From positions 1 to 33,787 of the forward strand of contig VGCA01000011.1 of the NCBI GenBank assembly GCA_016870245.1: 33,787 nucleotides of DNA. The letters are read 5' to 3'. Below, piece by piece: positions 2,066-4,054 of the stretch (the stretch's first letter is position 1; each line of letters opens with the position of its first letter). Origin of the DNA: Actinomycetota bacterium (lineage in GTDB: Bacteria > Actinomycetota > Acidimicrobiia > IMCC26256 > PALSA-555). The position numbers were made by a program, and so were the translations under genes. The notes below the pieces were generated by a model, which was not told where the DNA came from, made no database searches, and saw nothing but the letters and a program-made list of their open reading frames with translations.

Positions 2066-2704
2066 TCAGAAGCGGCGGAGGAGCGAGACGACCTTGCCGT
2101 AGATGGTGACGTCGGCGGGGTCGAAGACCATCTCGTCCATCGTGGCGTTCTCGGGGCGCAGCACCACCTTGTTGCGGCGCACGAGGTAGGTCTTCACCGT
2201 GGCCTCCTCGCCGGGGATGCCGGCGACGACGGTGTCGCCCGGCTCGGCGGTGGGCTGCTGGCGGACCACGACGAAGTCGCCGTCGAGGATGCCGGCGTCG
2301 ACCATCGACTCGCCGCGGACCCGCAGCATGAAGAGCGTGCCGTCGCCGGTGAAGTCCTCGGGCAGGGGCAGCGTCTCCTCCACGTGCTCGTCGGCGAGCA
2401 CGCCGGTGCCGGCGGCGACGTCGCCCACGAGGGGCACGAAGCGGGCCGGCCGGCGCTCGACCACCGAGCCGGAGCCGCCGTCGAAGCAGACCTCGATTGC
2501 CCGGGGCTTGGTGGGGTCGCGGCGCAGGAACCCCTTCTCCTGCAGGGCGGCCAGATGGGCGTGGACCGTGCTGGAGGAGGAGAGGCCCACGGCCTCGCCG
2601 ATCTCGCGCACCGACGGCGGGTAGCCGCGCTCGCGCACCTGGGCATCGATGAACTCGAGGACCTGGCGCTGGCGGGGGGTGAGGTCGGGCGTGGTGTCGT
2701 TCAT
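2066..2704 (-). CDS. lexA: SOS repressor LexA
   Basis: 212 aa transcriptional repressor of the DNA-damage response. The N-terminal winged helix-turn-helix covers about residues 8-70 (LTPRQRQVLEFI, PPSVREIGEAVGLSSSS). The C-terminal S24 autoprotease domain has the cleavage site Ala98-Gly99 (VAAGTGV), catalytic Ser133 in RGESMVDAGI and general base Lys171 in EATVKTYL, so RecA-stimulated self-cleavage should be intact. The start codon is immediately preceded by a -10-like TACGTT with 6 nt spacing, so the mRNA is probably leaderless. Four SOS-box-like sites lie upstream, the nearest next to the -10 element, implying autoregulation. It is divergent from a LysM membrane protein, the same arrangement as lexA with yneA in Bacillus and lexA with Rv2719c in Mycobacterium. 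Confidence 0.97.
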   Translation of the reverse strand: MNDTTPDLTPRQRQVLEFIDAQVRERGYPPSVREIGEAVGLSSSSTVHAHLAALQEKGFLRRDPTKPRAIEVCFDGGSGSVVERRPARFVPLVGDVAAGTGVLADEHVEETLPLPEDFTGDGTLFMLRVRGESMVDAGILDGDFVVVRQQPTAEPGDTVVAGIPGEEATVKTYLVRRNKVVLRPENATMDEMVFDPADVTIYGKVVSLLRRF

Positions 2705-2710
2705 GGTCGG

Positions 2711-2716
2711 AACGTA
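2711..2716 (-). promoter_or_regulatory. -10 element of lexA (leaderless)
   Basis: On the minus strand TACGTT is followed by exactly 6 nt and then the lexA ATG. This fits an actinobacterial TAnnnT -10 with transcription starting at or next to the start codon. No Shine-Dalgarno sequence is present. Confidence 0.6.
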
Positions 2717-2719
2717 TCA

Positions 2720-2733
2720 CGAATGTGCGTTCG
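2720..2733. promoter_or_regulatory. SOS box 1 (LexA operator)
   Basis: CGAATGTGCGTTCG matches the actinobacterial/Gram-positive SOS box CGAAC-N4-GTTCG with one mismatch (T for C at position 5). It lies directly upstream of the lexA -10, where bound LexA would block RNA polymerase. Confidence 0.8.
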
Positions 2734-2736
2734 GGG

Positions 2737-2750
2737 CAAACATCTGTTCG
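2737..2750. promoter_or_regulatory. SOS box 2 (LexA operator, one mismatch)
   Basis: CAAACATCTGTTCG matches CGAAC-N4-GTTCG except for A at position 2. Its start is 17 bp from the start of box 1. Confidence 0.6.
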
Positions 2751-2766
2751 AAATTCTCCTTGACCC

Positions 2767-2780
2767 CGAACAGCCGTTCG
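2767..2780. promoter_or_regulatory. SOS box 3 (LexA operator, perfect)
   Basis: CGAACAGCCGTTCG is a perfect match to CGAAC-N4-GTTCG. It is central in the lexA/LysM-protein intergenic region. Confidence 0.85.
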
Positions 2781-2791
2781 TGTTGAATGGG

Positions 2792-2805
2792 CGAACGGGC
2801 GTTCG
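2792..2805. promoter_or_regulatory. SOS box 4 (LexA operator, perfect)
   Basis: CGAACGGGCGTTCG is a perfect match, 25 bp from box 3. It is the box nearest the divergent LysM gene and likely represses it. Confidence 0.85.
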
Positions 2806-2852
2806 GTTCGGGGTGCACCCGGGGCGACGGCGACGTAGCTGTCACACCCCCG

Positions 2853-2878
2853 TGGTTCGATCCGCTTGGTTCGATCCG
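2853..2878. repeat. Tandem direct repeat in the LysM gene leader
   Basis: The 12-mer TGGTTCGATCCG occurs at 2853-2864 and again at 2867-2878 (14 bp period), between SOS box 4 and the LysM-protein start. Its function is not evident. It could be part of the promoter/leader or a regulator site. Confidence 0.5.
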
Positions 2879-2942
2879 TTCGTCCGACCAACCGACCCGA
2901 CCGGCCCCACCGGTCGAGCACAGGAGCACAGGAGAGAAGCAA

Positions 2943-3338
2943 GTGGCCGCAGTCACGGCGTTCTTCGGCGATGGAATCCCGGGACGCCCCGCCCCGTACC
3001 GGGAGACCCCCCGTGCCGCCATCACGCGGGCCCGCCGAGCGACCCCCATCGTGTTCTGGCGACGGCGCCTCGCCGTCGTCGCCATCGCGCTGGGCCTCGT
3101 CGTCGTGGTTGCGCAGGCGGGTGACGCGCTCGGGGGCTCTCCCCTCGCAGCCCCCGAGCGCCGCCCAGCCGCGTCGCAGACGTGGGTCGACGTCCGGGTC
3201 CGCCCGGGCGACTCGCCCTGGTCGATCGTCGAGCGCACCTTCCCGGGCTCCGACCCCCGCCCGCGGGTCGACCAGCTGGTCGAGGCCCGGCGCGGCGCAC
3301 CGCTGGTCCCGGGGGAGGTGATCCAGGTCCCGCGCTGA
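2943..3338 (+). CDS. LysM-domain membrane protein, probable SOS-induced cell-division inhibitor (YneA/ChiZ-like)
   Basis: 131 aa, GTG at 2943 with AGGAGA at 2930-2935. An earlier in-frame ATG at 2787 is rejected because it would overlap SOS box 4 and lacks an RBS. The layout is a basic cytoplasmic N-terminus of about 40 residues, one transmembrane helix (RRLAVVAIALGLVVVVAQAG), a short linker and a C-terminal LysM domain (VRPGDSPWSIVERTFPG ... GAPLVPGEVIQVP) that would sit outside the membrane and bind peptidoglycan. Small single-TM LysM proteins divergent from lexA include B. subtilis YneA, which blocks division during SOS, and mycobacterial Rv2719c, a cell-wall hydrolase. The perfect SOS boxes upstream support damage induction. 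No catalytic hydrolase domain is visible, so an inhibitor role is the better guess. Confidence 0.8.
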   Translation: MAAVTAFFGDGIPGRPAPYRETPRAAITRARRATPIVFWRRRLAVVAIALGLVVVVAQAGDALGGSPLAAPERRPAASQTWVDVRVRPGDSPWSIVERTFPGSDPRPRVDQLVEARRGAPLVPGEVIQVPR

Positions 3339-3380
3339 TTCCGGGGCACGGGCCGACGCGCGCCCGTCGCGACGGGTGGC

Positions 3381-3386
3381 TACCGT
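3381..3386 (+). promoter_or_regulatory. -10 element of nrdR (leaderless)
   Basis: TACCGT, 6 nt, then the GTG start of nrdR at 3393. There is no Shine-Dalgarno sequence. The spacing is the same as at lexA and the peroxiredoxin gene. Confidence 0.55.
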
Positions 3387-3392
3387 GGCCGC

Positions 3393-3863
3393 GTGCGCTG
3401 CCCCTACTGCGAGGTCGACAACGACAAGGTCGTCGACTCGCGTCCCTCCGACGAGGGGTCGGCGGTGCGGCGCCGGCGGGAGTGCCTCGAATGCGGTCGG
3501 CGCTTCACCACCTACGAGCGCCACGAGGAGGTGCCCGTCCTGGTGCGCAAGCGCTCGGGGCTCGTCGAGCCGTACGACCGCGAGAAGCTGCTCGCCGGGA
3601 TCCAGCGGGCGATCGCCGGGCGCTCGGTGGCCGACGGTGCGGCCGAGATCATCGCCGACGACATCGACGAGCGGGTCCGGGCCCAGGGCCGCGAGGTCAC
3701 GAGCGAGTTCCTCGGCCTCGCGGTGCTCGAGCACCTGCGGGCGCTCGACCCGGTCTCGTACCTGCGCTTCGCCTCGGTCTACAAGGGCTTCGAGGACGTC
3801 GGCGACTTCGAGGCCGAGGTCGAGGAGCTCCAGAAGACCACGGCACCCAAGCGCCGGGCGTAG
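3393..3863 (+). CDS. nrdR: Transcriptional repressor NrdR
   Basis: 156 aa, the usual NrdR length. It is a nucleotide-sensing repressor of ribonucleotide reductase genes. The N-terminal zinc ribbon has the four cysteines in MRCPYC and ECLECGRRFTTYER, and the ATP-cone domain spans about residues 49-139 (VRKRSGLVEPYDREKLLAGI ... YLRFASVYKGF). The start is GTG at 3393, probably leaderless. It is followed by nrdJ on the same strand after a 294-bp gap that carries nrdJ's own promoter and a palindrome resembling an NrdR box. nrdR next to nrdJ is a known actinobacterial arrangement (Streptomyces nrdRJ). Confidence 0.96.
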   Translation: MRCPYCEVDNDKVVDSRPSDEGSAVRRRRECLECGRRFTTYERHEEVPVLVRKRSGLVEPYDREKLLAGIQRAIAGRSVADGAAEIIADDIDERVRAQGREVTSEFLGLAVLEHLRALDPVSYLRFASVYKGFEDVGDFEAEVEELQKTTAPKRRA

Positions 3864-4032: not shown

Positions 4033-4054
4033 AAACCACAACATGTTGTGGTTT
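4033..4054. promoter_or_regulatory. Perfect 22-bp palindrome, probable NrdR operator of nrdJ
   Basis: The left arm AAACCACAACA is followed directly by its exact reverse complement TGTTGTGGTTT. The core CAACATGTTG agrees with the published NrdR-box core CwATATATwG at 8 of 10 positions. It lies about 25-45 nt downstream of the predicted nrdJ transcription start, and nrdR is the gene just upstream, so repression by NrdR is the natural reading. NrdR usually uses two boxes; a second clear copy was not found here. Confidence 0.65.

Follow-up and report, generated by a model that had tools for sequence, protein, structure and literature searches.

The question raised by this locus is how the LexA boxes lying between lexA and a divergent gene for a small LysM protein are shared between the two genes, and what else may act on the LysM gene. 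The window, by which we mean the whole 33,787-nucleotide stretch of actinomycetotal DNA that was analysed, holds four CGAAC-N4-GTTCG sites within 86 bp in this intergenic region. Box 1 (2720-2733, CGAATGTGCGTTCG) and box 2 (2737-2750, CAAACATCTGTTCG, in the CAAAC form) have one mismatch each; box 3 (2767-2780, CGAACAGCCGTTCG) and box 4 (2792-2805, CGAACGGGCGTTCG) are perfect. Scanning the window for the motif gave exactly the four SOS-box-like sites, with the coordinates and mismatch counts, that a sequence-only reading had claimed, and no fifth site was found at 2705-2942 with up to two mismatches. When at most one mismatch is allowed, the 33.8-kb window has seven sites, four in the array and three elsewhere; when up to two are allowed, it has 50 matches against 28.0 +/- 5.3 in shuffles. 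The array is far above chance expectation.

The same reading would have been refuted by failure of the boxes to be conserved in close relatives; they are in fact kept at about 44 loci of the order, the relatives being uncultured Acidimicrobiia and freshwater Actinomycetota MAGs. The conservation table comprises 44 alignable order loci, 43 of them tabulated for spacing. The array is kept across the order (Acidimicrobiia MAGs) and, with altered spacing, across the phylum too. Box 1 is perfect in none of the 44 relatives; it is mostly CGATC, and its forms CGATC, CGAAT and CGGAC are fixed. Box 2 is never perfect in the 44 order loci either, and reads CAAAC in about 40 of them; exact CAAACN4GTTCG is found at 40/45 order loci and 50/81 phylum loci. 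The distance between boxes 1 and 2 is 17 bp in 42 of the 43 tabulated loci. For most loci the distance from this pair to box 3, which is perfect in 28/43, is 29-31 bp, and box 4, or a second LysM-side box, is present at 29/44 loci (perfect in 22 of those 29). We rejected decay as the origin of the mismatched boxes, since boxes 1 and 2 have kept their mismatches across genera, and we set aside a single four-box threshold switch. The favoured reading gives each of the two promoters a pair, boxes 1 and 2 belonging to the lexA promoter and boxes 3 and 4 to the LysM promoter. Box 1 is less certain as a separate LexA site because the 17-bp spacing is specific to the order; elsewhere in the phylum the second lexA-side box is often at 15, 24 or 41-46 bp.

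The lexA gene (2066-2704, minus strand) encodes a 212-aa protein with a helix-turn-helix and an S24 peptidase domain (TIGR00498, E 1.6e-65; PF01726; PF00717). The ESM serine, the ATVK lysine and the AAG cleavage motif are all present, and the protein aligns to LexA structure 3k2z with E 1.1e-36. Column conservation in 43 aligned loci places a predicted -35, TTGCCC, at 2739-2734 and a predicted extended -10, TGATACGTT, at 2719-2711, both on the minus strand; the T and A columns of the latter are conserved in 42/43 loci. The two elements are 17 nt apart, with box 1 in the spacer, and the lexA ATG lies 7 nt beyond the end of the extended -10. Box 2 overlaps the predicted -35, the TTG of which is made by the G-to-A change of this box (CAAAC). 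Across the phylum, TANNNT follows at a spacer of 16-18 in 47 of the 50 loci with an exact CAAAC box. Transcription is predicted to start at the A of the ATG (2704) or close to it; of the 43 order genomes for which a -10 could be predicted, 33 have an in-frame lexA start codon 7-8 nt past it. Since the start codon coincides with the predicted +1 both in the window and in these genomes, the mRNA is probably leaderless, and the lexA promoter prediction gains an independent test.

On the other side, a strict sigma-70 scan found no promoter, because both LysM -10 elements are without A at position 2, and the promoters were therefore positioned by conservation. Promoter P1 has a predicted -35, TTGACC, at 2760-2765 and a predicted -10, TTGAAT, at 2783-2788, both on the plus strand with a 17-nt spacer read from the sequence; TTGAC stands right before box 3 in 42/44 loci. 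Box 3 is thus inside TTGACC-17-TTGAAT, and box 4 covers the predicted P1 start near 2795. That TTGAAT, like the TTCGAT of the second LysM-side element described below, does not have the usual A at position 2 counts against the promoter reading.

Box number also varies with the LysM gene. In a sample of the phylum, the mean number of boxes per locus is 3.1 with a LysM gene and 1.4 without, the control with the reversed pattern giving about 0.02. The corresponding family means are 2.80 and 1.59 (p = 0.001, to be taken as a guide, since families are only partly independent and divergent LysM genes can escape the search). At least one box is nearly always present at lexA. One actinobacterial family (f52) has the same lexA/LysM/nrdR order, with LysM matches of E 1e-6 to 1e-9. 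Another, with large genomes (f47), which we take to be Streptomyces-like, has an exact CAAAC-type lexA box in common with the window, but as its one box, and there is no LysM neighbour.

The same palindrome occurs elsewhere in the genome. Perfect copies number 20 in the 3.36-Mb draft, against none of the reversed pattern, and precede recA, uvrA, dnaE2 (two), ruvC (where the box overlaps the start codon), and DEDD-exonuclease/UvrC-like, DUF72 and HNH/DUF222 genes; among relatives, 29/30 recA leaders have a perfect box. Judged by sequence, this predicted site set is a recognisable actinobacterial LexA regulon, and a few of the sites, lying within other genes, could be due to chance. Perfect boxes at HNH/DUF222 (13E12-like) genes or their upstream ends are found on contigs C5, C26, C47, C103 and C111, several of the copies being near-identical. 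Other SOS promoters too have a LexA box between -35 and -10, for instance TTGCAATCGAACGTGCGTTCGTGTAGGGT at locus L048, and at L011, upstream of dnaE2, the second perfect box is beside TTGCAA on the opposite strand. In relatives G006, G012, G014, G019, G028 and G029, inteins are suggested by recA matches that are split, mostly inside open frames some 730-830 aa long.

Between P1 and the LysM gene, a second putative promoter, P2, is of the PafBC/RecA-NDp type (2840-2861, plus strand, TGTCACACCCCCGTGGTTCGAT) and has the form TGTCAC-N10-TTCGAT. It is found in 35 of 42 order LysM loci, as against 0.09 in shuffles and 0 on the opposite strand, and the same strict pattern occurs in 19/30 recA leaders (shuffles under 0.1). 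The genome's own recA is preceded by CGTCAC-N10-TACCGT in the same register as the LysM-locus element, and in most relatives recA has a TGTCAC core with a TANNNT -10 at the same distance. PafBC sites in M. tuberculosis are TGTCGG, TGTCAG or TGTCAC followed by N10-TA-N3-T (PMC8151990). Set against TGTC(R)-N10-TANNNT, the -35 part and the spacing at the LysM locus fit, but the second -10 base is T and not A, as it is in 28 of 37 LysM-locus copies. The LysM-locus copies also have a longer conserved core, CACCCCCGTGG, and an invariant TG one base upstream of the -10, which may compensate for the absent A. The TANNNT form has six matches genome-wide and none in the control; the sites precede rpsF (probably serving an rpsF-ssb operon), a dgt-like (dGTPase-like) gene, recA, a RecB-like nuclease, a UvrD-like helicase and one unknown gene, these genes being named by reading the downstream frames. 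An adjacent WYL-WYL pair (pafB-pafC-like) is found on contig C242 behind genes that we read from the ORFs as pafA-like and DUF3866-like. The register shared with recA, the M. tuberculosis site form, the WYL-WYL pair and the TG together make PafBC control of the LysM gene via P2 likely, and with such an element present the gene is probably not dependent on LexA alone. The promoters of the TANNNT set before rpsF and the other five genes, of the form GTCACACC-N6-GTANNNT, lie on contigs C20, C28, C114, C209 and C241, and several of them look leaderless.

The LysM gene itself (2943-3338, plus strand), the GTG start of which is backed by a conserved MAAV, encodes 131 aa: a disordered basic N-terminus, a transmembrane (TM) helix at about residues 35-63 and a LysM domain at 81-131. 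Searched alone against Pfam and NCBIfam, the protein gave no useful match and no LysM match. In the family alignment, LysM PF01476 is matched by 20/37 orthologues, and a profile of the orthologues finds LysM structures. The structure model has the TM helix followed by a beta-alpha-alpha-beta domain with pLDDT of about 90, the best Foldseek match of which is a LysM domain (probability 0.82, E 0.33, a weak match, the domain being tiny). No catalytic domain was found in the 131 aa by Pfam, NCBIfam or the structure model. The model is consistent with one TM helix and then an extracellular LysM domain, the basic RRR that precedes the helix being our ground for this orientation. By analogy, this small wall-binding membrane protein probably stops division once DNA is damaged. 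The next gene, nrdR (3393-3863, plus strand; TIGR00244, E 1.8e-48), starts about 55 nt past the LysM stop (3338-3393) and is probably co-transcribed with it; given this gap, the ribonucleotide reductase repressor is probably also induced alongside the LysM gene after DNA damage. Throughout the order, lexA, the LysM ORF and nrdR remain neighbours. Further along, at 4033-4054, a perfect 22-bp palindrome, AAACCACAACATGTTGTGGTTT, which looks like an NrdR box, lies upstream of nrdJ, the gene for the B12-dependent ribonucleotide reductase, and ACCACAA-N4-TTGTGGT-like sites follow nrdR in many relatives.

Compared by layout, the locus resembles that of M. tuberculosis, with a divergent lexA and TM-LysM gene, nrdR next, four boxes and a PafBC motif; the M. 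tuberculosis nrdR is Rv2718c, after Rv2719c (ChiZ). B. subtilis lexA-yneA is not known to have an nrdR or a PafBC element. In M. tuberculosis, the four SOS boxes and the PafBC motif lie between lexA and Rv2719c, lexA using one box and the Rv2719c operon the other three together with the motif (PMC8151990), whereas in the window each side has two boxes, the lexA-side pair having the 17-bp spacing specific to the order. The domain order of ChiZ (N-terminal IDR, TM helix, linker, LysM) matches that of the window protein (PMC7355643), although their lengths differ (165 and 131 aa). The first label given to Rv2719c, that of a wall hydrolase (PMC3989709), may be a misnomer (PMC7355643), and the assertion of the earlier reading that Rv2719c trims the wall is accordingly doubtful. 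The N-terminus and TM helix of ChiZ suffice for division arrest, whereas YneA needs its LysM domain (PMC7355643). B. subtilis YneA, also a LexA-controlled small TM-LysM protein adjoining lexA, is an architecture match; it targets FtsW and needs binding of peptidoglycan by its LysM (PMC13396833). DivS of C. glutamicum is likewise an SOS-induced division suppressor beside lexA (PMC3989709); described as having no significant homology to YneA, it is set beside the window protein by description. Streptomyces has no clear homologues of known division regulators (PMC9380542). A literature search for LexA or PafBC together with Acidimicrobiia gave nothing on the class among the matches listed. The arrangement is old and widely conserved, and is the layout of M. 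tuberculosis rather than a new system.

Other explanations must be set against this one. It might be argued that lexA autoregulation is the sole function of the four boxes, which would form a cooperative threshold switch and leave the LysM gene a bystander; the clustering of the boxes, and the box that lexA nearly always has, would suit such a scheme. Lineages without the LysM gene nevertheless keep about one box, box 3 is placed between the conserved TTGAC and a -10 directed at the LysM gene, and in M. tuberculosis the Rv2719c operon has three of the four boxes (PMC8151990). We consider this scheme very improbable. The TGTCAC element, for its part, could be the site of another regulator or part of an mRNA leader instead of a PafBC promoter, as the T for A in the -10 (28/37) and the longer core CACCCCCGTGG of the LysM-locus copies might indicate. 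This is rather unlikely, given a register identical to that of recA elements with TANNNT and the company that the TANNNT form keeps genome-wide (rpsF, probably with ssb, the dgt-like gene, recA, the UvrD-like helicase and the RecB-like nuclease); moreover, no part of the window matched an Rfam family.

There is also the view that the LysM protein is under SOS control but serves wall maintenance or remodelling and not division inhibition. In its favour are that LysM/TM architecture is what the analysis shows of the protein, and the original description of Rv2719c as a wall hydrolase (PMC3989709); set against these are the position, topology and dual damage control, which fit YneA and ChiZ, and a length of 131 aa with no detected catalytic domain. 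We regard the wall role as unlikely.

The reading that we favour, and hold to be quite probable from the sequence comparisons, is that this is the divergent lexA/LysM region of an actinobacterial DNA-damage checkpoint, with LexA on four boxes, PafBC as a second input and a hold on division as the outcome. LexA control of both genes and the likeness to YneA and Rv2719c, as first proposed, are supported by conservation, the regulon and the placement of the boxes; the proposal had treated the boxes as one block and had missed the PafBC input. LexA dimers would occupy the four operators, boxes 1 and 2 giving lexA autorepression and boxes 3 and 4, in the spacer and over the start site of P1, repression of the LysM gene. 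DNA damage would lead to RecA-driven self-cleavage of LexA and so free both promoters, first that of lexA with its imperfect boxes and later that of the LysM gene with its perfect ones. The downstream PafBC-type promoter would provide a second, LexA-independent damage input to the LysM-nrdR transcript, and the LysM protein, anchored in the membrane by one helix, would probably restrain the building of the septal wall in the manner of YneA and ChiZ. Binding by LexA and PafBC, the timing and division arrest are all inferred here. The fixed weak boxes on the lexA side and mostly perfect ones on the LysM side suggest graded timing, and timing by operator strength is a better-supported guess than a threshold effect. 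A bolder version, which we put forward tentatively as possible rather than probable, is a graded timer as old as the phylum, in which weaker fixed lexA-side operators, one of them doubling as the promoter -35, and near-perfect LysM-side operators would place lexA re-synthesis before the division block, with a PafBC promoter as an independent second key.

What the locus would mean for these organisms is that the dual LexA/PafBC cassette of lexA, TM-LysM protein and nrdR, known from M. tuberculosis, is kept in uncultured Acidimicrobiia and widely in the phylum. Among its natural variants the number of operators goes with whether a LysM gene is there, and they offer a direct route to testing which boxes belong to which gene.
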